Source of the DNA: Sulfuricaulis sp.
GTDB taxonomy: Bacteria > Pseudomonadota > Gammaproteobacteria > Acidiferrobacterales > Sulfurifustaceae
Direction: 5' to 3'
DNA: 45,112 nt
NCBI GenBank assembly: GCA_024654125.1
Contig: JANLIC010000317.1
Coordinates: 1 to 45,112 of the forward strand
Each line of letters opens with the position of its first letter. Within the stretch, counting starts at the first letter, position 1. Position numbers and translations under genes: made by a program. Positions 4,396 through 28,659 of this stretch are shown here, one piece after another. Below the pieces are notes generated by a model, which was not told the origin of the DNA, did no database searches, and saw only the letters and a list, made by a program, of their open reading frames with translations.

Positions 4396-5415
4396 CTACT
4401 CGCTGGTCCGGTAAGTCGTACCCAGTTGGATAAGGCGTTGAATGAAGTCGTCATAGCTCATCCCGGCCTTGATGGCGGAATGCGTGCAGTCCTCATCGCG
4501 GGCAATACCGGGATTGGGATTGGCTTCAATCACGTAGATTTCGCCGTCAGCCGTGAGACGCAGGTCGACTCTCCCGTAGCCGTTCATGTCGAGCAGGTGG
4601 TAGACGCGCTTGCACAGGTGCTGGATGCGCTCCTCCATGCCGTTCGGCAGGGTGCGGGCGAACTGGTATTCGATACCCCAGCGTTCGCGGTACTTGTCGT
4701 CCCATTTAACCGCGTAGGTTGCCATCCTGGGCGTTCCCGGCTCGACGTTGTCGAATACCAGCTCGCGGATAGGCAGGACCTCGAGTTTGGCGTTTCCGAG
4801 GACCGTGACATACAGCTCGCGTCCGTCGATGTATTGCTCGGCGATGGCATCGCCATGAAGTTTGTCGTGGATCAGCGCCACGCGTTCGCGCAGCTGGTCC
4901 TCGTTCTCCACGTAAGACGCCTGGGCGATGCCGACCGAGCCTTCCTCGGTCAATGACTTGACGATCAGGGGAAAGACGAATTTTCGCCGTCGGCTGATCT
5001 TGCGGCCGAGCCGGAAGACGTAAAAGTCCGGAACACTGATGCGATGGTACGTGAGGATCATCTTGGTCAGCGCTTTGTCGCGCGCCAGCAGCAAACCGCG
5101 CGGATTGCAGCCGGTGTAGGGGATGCGCATCATCTCGAAATAACTGACAACGTAATAATCGAAGGCGCTGTTGCCGGCGAAGTCTTCCAGAAGATTGAAT
5201 GCGATGTGGGGCTTGAATTCCTCGTTCATCTTGCGAATCGGCATGAGATCGTCGTAAACGCCCACGACTTGGACTTCATGCCCGAGATTGATCAACGCGT
5301 TTTTGACGTCGTACTCGGTGCGGAACTTCTCCATGCGCGGATCATTTTTATCTTTCAAATCATCCGGTGGCACCAGCGTGTAGTGTACCACCATCATGAC
5401 GCGCAGTTTTTTCAT
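4396..5415 (-). CDS. ATP-grasp ligase, D-alanine--D-alanine ligase-like
   Basis: 339 residues, cytoplasmic. Typical Ddl-like ATP-grasp features: ATP-binding lysine K153 in VKS, the small loop EGSVGI at 158-163, EQYIDGRE at 193-200, and the metal-binding residues D284, E297 and N299 (IEANPNPG at 296-303). ATP-grasp ligases of this kind join an amine to a carboxylate through an acyl phosphate. It is unlikely to be the housekeeping Ddl: the first 100 residues (PPDDLKDKNDPRMEK, FNLLEDFAGN) differ from canonical Ddl and no cell-wall genes are nearby. It follows the metallopeptidase gene in the same direction after a 216-bp gap occupied by a repeat, so a ligase/peptidase pair making or trimming a small peptide is a reasonable inference. 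The substrate is unknown. Confidence 0.8.
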   Translation of the reverse strand: MKKLRVMMVVHYTLVPPDDLKDKNDPRMEKFRTEYDVKNALINLGHEVQVVGVYDDLMPIRKMNEEFKPHIAFNLLEDFAGNSAFDYYVVSYFEMMRIPYTGCNPRGLLLARDKALTKMILTYHRISVPDFYVFRLGRKISRRRKFVFPLIVKSLTEEGSVGIAQASYVENEDQLRERVALIHDKLHGDAIAEQYIDGRELYVTVLGNAKLEVLPIRELVFDNVEPGTPRMATYAVKWDDKYRERWGIEYQFARTLPNGMEERIQHLCKRVYHLLDMNGYGRVDLRLTADGEIYVIEANPNPGIARDEDCTHSAIKAGMSYDDFIQRLIQLGTTYRTSE

Positions 5416-5429
5416 GATGCTGTCTCAAT

Positions 5430-5619
5430 ACCCCCTCTCCCTTGAGGGAGAGGGCGGGGGTGAGGGTGATGAGGTATGCCATATCGCGGCGTCTCACCCC
5501 TCACCCTGGTTGTTCCCGCCGGGGTGCCATAAAACTCCATGGCACCCGTTCGGTGGCGTGAACACACGTTAAGTGTGTTCACGAAAACCCCACCTCACCT
5601 CCCCTGAGGGGAGAGGGGT
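5430..5619. repeat. Modular palindromic repeat, copy A
   Basis: Fills the gap between the ATP-grasp and metallopeptidase genes. Outer arms CCCCTCTCCC (5432-5441) and GGGAGAGGGG (5609-5618). Inside, hairpin 1 has arms GGGTGCCAT (5522-5530) and ATGGCACCC (5539-5547); hairpin 2 has an 11-bp stem, CGTGAACACAC (5557-5567) with GTGTGTTCACG (5573-5583) and loop GTTAA. A further GGGTGAGGG/CCTCACCC dyad lies between the left arm and hairpin 1. Shared backbone with copies B and C: CCCGCCGGGGTGC before hairpin 1, GCACCCGTTCG after it, then ACCTCACCTCCC. Confidence 0.8.
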
Positions 5620-5631
5620 AATGAAATCTGT

Positions 5632-6717
5632 TCATATGGCGAGGCGCGACATCCCGCTGCGCAGCGAGCCCATGTAGAGCATCACGAGCGAAGCGATGAG
5701 CGCGGTCTTGGTTTCTTCCTTGTCGCGTGAGGCGTGAAGATTCATTTCCTCACAGCGGTGGATCATGTCCTCGATGGTCAGGTTGATACGATAGCGAGAT
5801 TCGGAGGTCCAGCGGGCGACGCTGTTGATGGCCTCGCGCCGCATTTTCCGGACGAAATGCGCGGCGCGCTCATTCTTGTGGCTGACCGAGGCGGGGAAGA
5901 TCTGCCGCAACTGCTGCTCGTGAAAGCATGGCAGATCCTGTTGCAGGCGCGTTTGCTTCTCCGCGAAATATTCGCGCAGCGTGATCCGCAGCGTGTTGAC
6001 CGAATCGACCTGCTTCTTGCTGCGCACCGGCGGCGTGTGGCCGACGATCTCCTTCATCAACGTGTCCACGTAATTGAGTTTCTTGATAGCCGGCCAGTCA
6101 CGGTATTTCTCACGCCAGCGCGAGCCCGGGTCGAGCCATACGGCGAAGGTCTCGGCCCAGTCCTCGGCGGGATGGCTCTGCGCGTACCAGTTGTCGAGGT
6201 GCAGCACGTAATTGCGGCTGTAGGGCCGCGGCAGGTAGCTTTCGGGATAGGTCTTGCTGTTGCGCCCGAAGCGGCGGCGCCAGCTTTGCTTCAGGTGCAG
6301 GCGATAGGCGTTGGCCAGCGCATGCGCGGTTTCGTGCCGCAGCAGCTTCATGCGTGACTCCAGCGTGGTGCCGTCGAATTCGAGCATGTGCGCTTTTTCC
6401 AGGCGCATGAGCCGCGGGTGCACGAGGAAGAACGGGATGGCAATTCCGGGCACGCCGTCCGGGCAAAACCAGCAGTCCGAAAGCCAGCAATGCGGGCGGA
6501 ACGCGAAGCCGCGGTTGGCGAGGTCATGCCACAGCAGCCTGACCTCTTTCTGGATCTTGCTGCCGTCGAGCGTAAGCCCCAGGTCGCACAGCCGGGTGTC
6601 CAGTAGGTTCTCATCGGATAAACGCGTCCAGGAGACTGCCGCCGGGCGCCGCGAGGTTTTCTTCCGGCTTTTCTTCCGGCGCAGTTTCTTGCGTTTTTTT
6701 ATTTTTTTGGAAGGGAT
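5632..6717 (-). CDS. Putative zinc-binding metallopeptidase, non-AUG start
   Basis: About 361 residues if translation begins at the ATC codon 6715-6717. Zincin signature RHETAHAL (H128, E129, H132) followed by AEDWAETFAVW (E185, E189), which probably supplies the third zinc ligand. This matches the 'putative zinc-binding metallo-peptidase' family (Pfam Peptidase_Mx-type) from memory. The N-terminus is very basic (residues 4-20 mostly K/R), then comes a cysteine cluster C44, C77, C82, C85 that may form a zinc ribbon. No ATG, GTG or TTG lies in frame between the upstream stop (6739-6741) and GTG 6453, and starting at 6453 would delete the cysteines. AAGGAG stands six bases before ATC 6717, which decided the start. 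No signal peptide. It follows the TraB/GumN gene by 29 bp and precedes the ATP-grasp gene, suggesting one operon. Confidence 0.72.
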   Translation of the reverse strand: MPSKKIKKRKKLRRKKSRKKTSRRPAAVSWTRLSDENLLDTRLCDLGLTLDGSKIQKEVRLLWHDLANRGFAFRPHCWLSDCWFCPDGVPGIAIPFFLVHPRLMRLEKAHMLEFDGTTLESRMKLLRHETAHALANAYRLHLKQSWRRRFGRNSKTYPESYLPRPYSRNYVLHLDNWYAQSHPAEDWAETFAVWLDPGSRWREKYRDWPAIKKLNYVDTLMKEIVGHTPPVRSKKQVDSVNTLRITLREYFAEKQTRLQQDLPCFHEQQLRQIFPASVSHKNERAAHFVRKMRREAINSVARWTSESRYRINLTIEDMIHRCEEMNLHASRDKEETKTALIASLVMLYMGSLRSGMSRLAI

Positions 6718-6746
6718 GTCCGTCTCCTTAAAGATTTTTCAGTAAA

Positions 6747-7712
6747 TTAATAGACCACGGTAACACGATACCCGGCTTTCTCAAGCCGGTACAACAGGCC
6801 AGTTTCGCCCGGCAGGTGCGCCGCGCCCACGGCGATGAAGGCACCGCCCTGTTTGAGAATCGGTTTTAAGCGCTCGACCATGCGCAGATTGCGTTGCGCC
6901 AGTAACCGGTCCATGACTTCGTCATAGAGTCGCGCATCGCCCGGTTTGTTCTTTTCAGTGATGGCCACGATGGCGCCCAGGTCGCGCGCGAGATAAGCCT
7001 TATGCAGCGCCTCGAATTCCTTTTCAGACTCTTTTTGTGTATCCACGGTATCCTGTAACAGCGCCACCTGATCGGGCAGCGGCAGGTCGTCGAACACCGC
7101 CAATTGTTCCGCGACGGTTTCGAGCCCGGACACGGGTTTGTTTTGTTGCGTGGCGCGCGCCTGCAGCATGAGATCGAGGTATTCGCCGGTCTTGAGAGTC
7201 GGCATGGACAGCGCCATCATGACCGCCCAGGGTTTTTGCTTCTCGATGCCCAGCGTTGGCACGCCGCGAGCGGTCATTGCCATTTTGGTTTCCAGGTACA
7301 GTTTCTCGCCGATGACCTGTTCCAGCGTGCGCCCGTCGTTGAAAAACATGGCCTCGGCCATTTGCACCAGGGCTTCGCCACTGACAATGGCCTCCATGAC
7401 GAAGTGGCTGGAGTTGCCCAGCGAGCGTGCGACGGGCTCTGGCAGAACATTAACGCGCGCATCGTCGGAGTGGATCGTGCCGAACAGAAAACTTGTCGTA
7501 GCGCTCGGCGATTCGATTTTCCACAGCAGGCCCTTGGTGTAGCGCGAAGCGGATTCGGAAACGGCGCTGACGCTGCTTTTTGCCGCGGAAGTTGTTGCTG
7601 AGGCTTCACCCGTCCAGAGTGGCAGGGCAAATAGGACGGCAAGTAGAATTCTGGAAAAGAGGCGGAAATCGGTTTTGGACAACGCTGTGTGGGCGGCGGA
7701 ATGTCGACGCAT
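6747..7712 (-). CDS. TraB/GumN family protein, secreted
   Basis: 321 residues. An N-terminal hydrophobic segment (about 17-39) ends in GEASA, a likely signal peptide cleavage site, placing the protein in the periplasm or anchored in the inner membrane. Family hallmarks: FLFGTIHSDD with H81 near the start of the domain and VGAAHLPGETGL (295-306) near the end, the two conserved GxxH elements of the TraB/GumN fold, which is related to TIKI-type metalloproteases. The bacterial function is not established. First gene of a minus-strand run with the metallopeptidase and ATP-grasp genes; the 29-bp gap to the next gene suggests co-transcription. Pairing a secreted putative protease with a cytoplasmic zinc peptidase and a peptide-type ligase is suggestive but unproven. 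No good ribosome-binding site is seen before the ATG. Confidence 0.85.
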   Translation of the reverse strand: MRRHSAAHTALSKTDFRLFSRILLAVLFALPLWTGEASATTSAAKSSVSAVSESASRYTKGLLWKIESPSATTSFLFGTIHSDDARVNVLPEPVARSLGNSSHFVMEAIVSGEALVQMAEAMFFNDGRTLEQVIGEKLYLETKMAMTARGVPTLGIEKQKPWAVMMALSMPTLKTGEYLDLMLQARATQQNKPVSGLETVAEQLAVFDDLPLPDQVALLQDTVDTQKESEKEFEALHKAYLARDLGAIVAITEKNKPGDARLYDEVMDRLLAQRNLRMVERLKPILKQGGAFIAVGAAHLPGETGLLYRLEKAGYRVTVVY

Positions 7713-7840
7713 TGAACGATTGGCTTCAGGAAAGGATTCTACAAATGTGCCACGATCGCGGATGGCGACCCGGAATCGGAGTTGCTTTCATTCACATGCC
7801 CCTCACCCTTTGCCCCAATCGAAATAAAGATGCTCACTGA

Positions 7841-8044
7841 CTCCCCTCTCCCTCCGGGAGAGGGCAAAGGGTGAGGGGGATCACCCCTCGTCCCCATCGT
7901 TTCCTGCCGGGGTGCGCGTACATCATGCGCACCCGCTCGATGGCGCGGATGTCCACCGGACATCCGCGACACCTCCATCTCGCCTCCCGCCAGGGGAGAA
8001 GGTACCCTCACCCCGACCCCTCTCCCGCAAGCGAGAGAGGGGAG
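7841..8044. repeat. Modular palindromic repeat, copy B
   Basis: Occupies most of the 458-bp gap between the divergent TraB/GumN and MipA genes. Outer arms CTCCCCTCTC (7841-7850) and GAGAGGGGAG (8035-8044). Hairpin 1 has arms GGGTGCGC (7910-7917) and GCGCACCC (7927-7934). Hairpin 2 has an 11-bp stem CGCGGATGTCC (7944-7954) with GGACATCCGCG (7958-7968). The backbone matches copy A, but hairpin 2 arms differ while staying fully complementary. The left and right ends also contain the widespread CCCTCTCCC/GTGAGGG-type dyads. Bases 7713-7840 and 8045-8170 hold nothing else that I recognise, although promoters for both neighbours must lie there. Confidence 0.8.
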
Positions 8045-8170
8045 TTCTGTAAGATCGGAGCCGTGGCGCGCTGGCGCACGCACCTCTTCACTCTGGGGGA
8101 GTTTGTTCGCTGACGCGCTTTTTCGGTTGGGCCCGATTACCATGTATCCAAGAATATATTAGGAATGCCG

Positions 8171-18022: not shown

Positions 18023-18264
18023 TTTCCTGAAATACCGGTTTTCCCCCTTGAAACATGGGTTCGCCGGCACATTGATGTCGGGCGGGCGCACGACTATATA
18101 AAAATAGGAAGCTGAAAATACGCCAGATCTGGCCGTATCCAGACGGGCGCGGTTCTGGCGGCCATGCCGGTGACTGGCCTCATTAAATCAGCCAAATTCA
18201 GGGGCGTGCGAGCGTTTGCCGGTAACGGGATGTCTGGTAAATAATCTTCTGTACGCTATAGTTA
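18023..18264. other. Gap between asd and fimV, no gene seen
   Basis: Part of a 342-bp non-coding stretch. It contains a 10-bp palindrome CCAGATCTGG at 18123-18132 and an AT-rich tract TATATAAAAATA near 18095, but no open frame with a ribosome-binding site and no clear terminator with a T-run after asd. Confidence 0.5.
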
Positions 18265-28536: not shown

Positions 28537-28659
28537 CTCCCCCTTTCCCGCGAAGGCGGGAGGTGAGACGGGGCTGTCACGAATGCACTTAACGTGCATT
28601 CGTGCCGTCGAACGGGTGCGCAAGATTCTCGCGCACCCTGGCGGGAATCCAATGGGGAG
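28537..28659. repeat. Modular palindromic repeat, copy C (opposite orientation to A and B)
   Basis: Lies between tRNA-Leu and tig. Short outer arms CTCCCC (28537-28542) and GGGGAG (28654-28659). Hairpin 2: CACGAATGCAC (28578-28588) with GTGCATTCGTG (28594-28604), 11 bp, loop TTAAC. Hairpin 1: GGGTGCGC (28614-28621) with GCGCACCC (28631-28638). Read on the minus strand it aligns with copies A and B over the CCCGCC, CACCCGTTCG and CTCACCTCCC backbone. Confidence 0.8.

Follow-up and report, generated by a model that had tools for sequence, protein, structure and literature searches.

We found that three of the palindromes in the window (the whole 45,112-nucleotide stretch of Sulfuricaulis sp. 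DNA analyzed here) are composites, in which a mobile hairpin element that we call Y has settled within older palindromes, mostly a known triplex-forming repeat (TM/PIT/BoxC). Y is a small mobile element of ~85 bases that has apparently not been described so far; no published description of its core or of the palindrome sequences was found in the open-access literature, which is not proof of novelty. A sequence-only reading had regarded these copies, named A, B, and C, together with a divergent copy D, as one family of modular palindromes. A (5430-5619), B (7841-8044), and C (28537-28659, reverse) are indeed present with the common core that it described, and each hairpin-2 arm (CGTGAACACAC, CGCGGATGTCC, and CACGAATGCAC) has an exact 11-bp partner. 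When folded as single-stranded DNA and compared with dinucleotide shuffles, A, B, and C gave z = -9.0, -7.9, and -6.9, respectively, and no shuffle equalled them. The composites as a whole are nevertheless not one family, because the outer arms are the known TM/PIT/BoxC repeat, which carries Y as a separate inner unit. The limits proposed for A were also too short, since the inserted DNA extends over ~5416-5635 when judged by empty sites, and the outer arms, which had been said to pair in every copy, pair arm with arm in B and C, while in A each arm forms its own local hairpin. The features are listed below, with scores from the covariance model R1, which was built on an alignment of 18 Y copies.

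5416..5635, unstranded: composite A, inserted DNA including one TTCAT copy, based on empty sites in congeners
5411-5415 and 5631-5635: TTCAT 5-bp repeats bordering composite A
5431..5466, plus strand: first TM/PIT/BoxC motif of A, CCCTCTCCC-TTGA-GGGAGAGGG-CGG-GGGTGAGGG, which fits the TM pattern of PMC4666352
5496..5619, unstranded: second TM of A, inverted and split by the Y core into ~5496-5507 and ~5600-5619, by comparison with uninterrupted pairs (L008, L011, L013)
5513..5599, minus strand: Y core of A, a two-hairpin unit with the 11-bp stem CGTGAACACAC / GTGTGTTCACG; R1 match of 93.7 bits
7841..8044, unstranded: composite B, an inverted TM pair with a nested Y core plus a further TM, based on folding and repeats
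7901..7984, minus strand: Y core of B, with the 11-bp stem CGCGGATGTCC; R1 match of 92.7 bits
28537..28659, plus strand: composite C, between tRNA-Leu and the next gene, a 434-aa ORF
28562..28647, plus strand: Y core of C, with the 11-bp stem CACGAATGCAC; R1 match of 97.4 bits
3451..3614, plus strand: D, a different palindromic repeat family without an R1 match

The 434-aa ORF that follows C is one that we take to be trigger-factor-like, judging by its place before clpP/clpX/lon-sized ORFs. Copy D, previously counted as a divergent member, is a separate repeat family, because R1 misses it and a distinct set of 18 matches to it exists in the window's genome. Its family, with the ends GCGCCCATTGCC...GGCAATGGGCGC, was found in 7 of 8 congeners, and D itself folds strongly (z -7.5). 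As a side observation, corresponding intergenic positions are occupied in related genomes by palindromic repeats of other kinds (L136, L091, and L069 versus L026, L002, and L052), namely of the types CCACAGAG, CCGCAAAG, and CGCAGATAAACGCAGAT.

Y consists of GGYGAGRCGG, an 11-bp stem-loop (hairpin 2), CCGYCGARCG, hairpin 1, and GGGCNGCAA, and it is present in many copies, with an imperfect, bulged hairpin as its consensus fold, as is characteristic of REPs. Across 91 distinct copies, standard pairs fill 98.3% of the paired cells, and 360 double-changed cells were observed versus 88 +/- 8 in shuffles, while sliding the partners by 1-3 columns left just 31-52% of cells paired. The arms therefore change together with their pairing kept, as had been claimed from the few copies in the window, and do so well above both controls. 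The hairpin-2 stem is a perfect 11 bp in 74 of the 91 copies, with arm sequences that are many and varied and loops of two main types, almost always TTAAC or RGT. A second form of hairpin 1, with CAGGGATG-type loops, is found in Y copies flanked by direct repeats at genes.

The ends of Y were analyzed in 44 copies that lie outside TM. To the left, the 19 columns from -20 to -2 hold 0-0.5 bits each, after which come a G at -1 (1.7 bits) and GGYGAG, with GG at about 2 bits and conservation of up to 2 bits per column; to the right, conservation drops past GGGCNGCAA. This sharp left end and the fall-off on the right indicate that Y is a defined unit placed after a G, not a ragged copy. A GTAG or CGTC tetranucleotide is absent from the Y end, where the left end is GGYGAG and the flanks are unconserved apart from the preceding G.

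A genome-wide search with R1, of the kind that the sequence-only reading had suggested, revealed further copies and a true multi-copy family: 43 in the window's own 2.43-Mb draft genome and 45 in a complete congener of 2.86 Mb, with Y present in 23 of the 41 genomes searched as relatives (Sulfuricaulis / Ca. Muproteobacteria, own genome counted), including all 8 congeners. Carriers comprise Sulfuricaulis sp., Candidatus Muproteobacteria, and gammaproteobacterial MAGs. In the wider class, at least 21 of 369 genomes have a Y match with an E value no higher than 1e-5, and three of these genomes belong to the same family; strict filters make the count a lower bound. By blastn, the Y core matched neither E. 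coli nor phages, and plasmids yielded no meaningful match; Rfam returned no family above its gathering score, with only tRNAs in the window and weak chance matches in the element region.

Insertion sites in related strains, also proposed as a check, were compared, and empty sites were found for all three composites. Site A is empty in seven congeners, where the neighbor genes are directly joined (CTTTTTCAT to ATGG, or CAT to ATCG, with TCAT in one), and in the window the inserted DNA is bordered by two TTCAT copies. An element lies at the same point in the congener G004, with different Y arms. Because closer relatives of the window's genome and of G004 lack the element, either it was inserted twice independently or it was precisely lost several times, and we tentatively favor independent insertions. 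At site B, ~7735-8129 is absent from G001, G004, and G006, and a related insertion is present in G008; at site C, seven congeners have no element between the tRNA and the next gene. Where Y copies are syntenic across genomes, paired changes exceed one-sided changes by about two to one (18 vs 9, from eight comparisons, some of which share a copy), which argues that Y copies stay paired after insertion. Between L032 and L072, an arm and loop of Y have been replaced whole.

TM/PIT/BoxC is an intrastrand-triplex repeat common in E. coli, where it also forms inverted pairs (PMC4666352, Holder et al. 2015). It makes up the outer arms of A, B, and, in part, C, and triplex formation is predicted for them here from the motif. 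The pattern CCCTCTCCC-loop-GGGAGAGGG-loop-GGGTGAGGG has 31 exact matches in the genome and none for the backward control, and the first TM of A has perfect 9-mers at 5433, 5446, and 5458. Inverted TM pairs uninterrupted by Y exist in the same genome (L008, L011, and L013), and part of one such Y-free pair recurs in E. coli, with matches at 18,052 places distributed among 4,565 of 5,426 genomes.

Nesting is not limited to TM. A perfect TM 9-mer lies within 60 bp of 20 of 30 own-genome Y copies, compared with 1.8% of random intervals, and Y is also nested in a GTAGCCYGGAT REP-like repeat, in CCGCAAAGACGC, GTCATTCC, and ACAGGATTAACAG repeats, in CCGCAAAGACGCGAAG or CCGCCAAGACGCCAAG repeats and GTCATTCCSGCGAAAGC repeats, in tRNA genes, and within the hairpin 1 of a second Y. 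The left and right flanks of Y match exactly in inverted orientation over at least 9 nt in 44% of 110 copies (6% with shuffled flanks) and match directly in 31% (7% when shuffled). Inverted Y pairs recur at a near-constant length of 197-233 bp (ten examples). We also observed inverted double-Y units of ~230 bp within ACAGGATTAACAG...CTGTTAATCCTGT-type flanks in two congeners (G004 L194-L198 and G008 L214-L217).

A further subset of copies lies between direct repeats. The sequence left of Y is repeated downstream (score of at least 13) in 21 of 158 copies versus 5 of 316 control positions, and these repeats are variable in length (15-119 bp) and end at Y. At tRNA loci, a 5′ or a 3′ portion of the tRNA is what recurs; the outer border of the repeat falls at most ~4 nt from the mature tRNA end at L218, L265, L202, L207, L269, L273, and L271, and the repeats are longer at L208, L266, L274, and L073. 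ARAGORN found an intact tRNA beside Y in the examples run, and at the tRNA-Met of G059, several tandem Y units lie upstream and inverted units downstream. Y-like units between partial tRNA copies, some in tandem arrays, were seen at L275 (G059:C1:1013500-1019500), L269, L271, L273, L274, L202, L207, L212, and L218. In G011 and at L059/L080, it is the beginning of a protein gene that is repeated. Y-like units at L059, L078, L080, and in G011 (L280) are located, in several genomes, at the beginning of one and the same gene, MSEEILINVTPQET, whose start is duplicated; from its appearance by eye, we presume this gene to be ribonuclease G-like.

The family status of Y and its insertion are well supported, and we infer the following mechanism. 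On balance, we lean toward Y being a non-autonomous REP-like element, mobilized in trans, recognized as folded single-stranded DNA, and preferring palindromes, by analogy with REP/REPIN or IS200/IS605-type elements. Recognition would probably involve the folded single strand, with the 11-bp hairpin on its GCGG/CCGC base and the second hairpin, and an enzyme encoded elsewhere would act on it, as in those systems. Y would insert just 3′ of a G, with a preference for palindromic or hairpin-forming DNA that would explain its nesting within other repeats. Within the window, Y occupies one half of inverted TM/PIT/BoxC pairs, themselves inserted elements. Stems would be maintained by selection for mobility, and arm-to-arm template switching may help to keep them perfect. 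The sharp ends of Y argue for an enzyme and against its spread by copying alone. Against the mobile-element reading, no mobilizing gene was found, and the best candidate, the Y1/RAYT class, is neither adjacent nor consistently present, and the variable direct repeats of 15-119 bp are not a product of IS200/IS605-type transposition; the comparisons behind this reading include no orthologous TM with and without Y. The pairing of orthologous Y copies over long divergence could also point to a function beyond mobility.

An enzyme-free alternative is that replication template switching both repairs the arms of Y and copies it into forks that have stalled at tRNA genes or palindromes. Arm-to-arm template switching is a described route to making and keeping perfect hairpins (PMC8794818), and it would suit the insertions at palindromes and tRNA genes as well as the excess of copies between direct repeats. 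It would also suit the changes in hairpin 2, where double-changed cells (~175) far exceed one-sided or broken ones (14; ~12 to 1, counting sequences, not events), with intermediates nearly absent. However, such copying should leave ragged ends, and those of Y are sharp across unrelated flanks; it also leaves the whole arm-and-loop replacement between L032 and L072 unaccounted for, and we consider this alternative unlikely. We are equally hesitant about a broader possibility, that Y is the founding member of a class of hairpin elements moved by an enzyme or by a process templated by RNA or replication, with hairpins and tRNA genes as its targets. The direct repeats that enclose Y at tRNA loci have, in several cases, a border at or near the end of the mature tRNA; an intact tRNA is left in place, sometimes beside multi-unit arrays.

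The proposal that Y is a REP mobilized by a RAYT (Y1 tyrosine transposase) fits the similar architecture, with a short 5′ tag, an imperfect hairpin, and inverted pairs, and Y1-type genes do occur in 14 of 20 genomes of the family and, in the wider class outside the order, in 14 of 18 Y-positive genomes. Nonetheless, they are also found in 9 of 16 Y-negative genomes and are missing altogether from 4 of the 18 Y-positive ones, and Y has no GTAG or CGTC tag. The 40 regions around Y1-type loci contain 6 Y in 269 kb (1 per 45 kb), not clearly above a background of ~1 Y per 64 kb genome-wide in the complete congener, a rough comparison. The sequence-only reading had seen no mobilizing gene in the window, which agrees with the surroundings of the copies examined here, and had advised a search for a RAYT-type transposase. 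That search did yield one weak Y1-transposase-like gene with an MPNHVHGII motif (L031, G000:C75:10797-11078), the only one detected in the window's genome as assembled, but it is a frameshifted remnant with no Y nearby. With no adjacency, no consistent co-occurrence, and no GTAG tag, the RAYT suspicion found no support, and we regard this explanation as improbable.

Two further candidates were tried and rejected. An autonomous parent was sought between inverted Y pairs (two 3-4 kb and one ~6 kb apart), which enclose only ordinary genes, by eye presumably SoxB-like, phosphoribulokinase-like, and TRAP transporter parts. Integron attC sites have the core motifs RYYYAAC/GTTRRRY, and these are absent from the Y ends. 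Finally, it is likewise improbable that Y acts under selection as a structured RNA or a transcription signal (a terminator or mRNA stabilizer) and was spread by recombination: orthologous copies keep their pairing, and Y may outdo its flanks in conservation (95% vs 74-83% at L069/L071), but no Rfam family scored above threshold, Y is inserted within tRNA-derived copies and other repeats, and a terminator or strand-specific RNA role was rejected because the gene context shows neither convergent-gene enrichment (9 of 73) nor strand preference (28 vs 23 among tandem pairs).

As a trans-mobilized REP-like element, Y would be a small element that targets palindromes and tRNA genes. It also offers a clean, countable case of perfect hairpin pairing under letter change, in which selection can be set against arm-to-arm copying, and it links the E. 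coli triplex repeats, with their puzzling ‘instability’, to insertions for which empty sites exist. In motif and inverted pairing, the outer arms of A and B and part of those of C agree with TM/PIT/BoxC of E. coli, where, unlike in the Sulfuricaulis composites, there is no Y core match; PMC4666352 reported no mobile-element link for TM, whereas here the empty sites show insertion. Like REP/BIME/REPIN (PMC3733652, PMC2817692, PMC3116915), Y forms short intergenic imperfect hairpins with a conserved 5′ tag, in tens of copies and inverted pairs, and both are likely moved in trans. Y is thus REP-like in form, yet it has GGYGAG in place of the GTAG or CGTC tag and shows no RAYT adjacency at the Y1 loci examined, and, unlike REPs, it includes a second hairpin in its unit and nests in other palindromes. 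MITEs are likewise short, non-coding, and multi-copy, and composite A resembles them in lying between 5-bp direct repeats (TTCAT); its outer ends are partly alike. A single Y, however, lacks terminal inverted repeats and a constant duplication, and no autonomous parent was found between the three inverted pairs 3-6 kb apart. IS110-type insertion sequences insert into REP and group IIC introns at terminators, and both share with Y the insertion into palindromic DNA; they are, however, far larger and encode their own enzyme, whereas Y encodes nothing.
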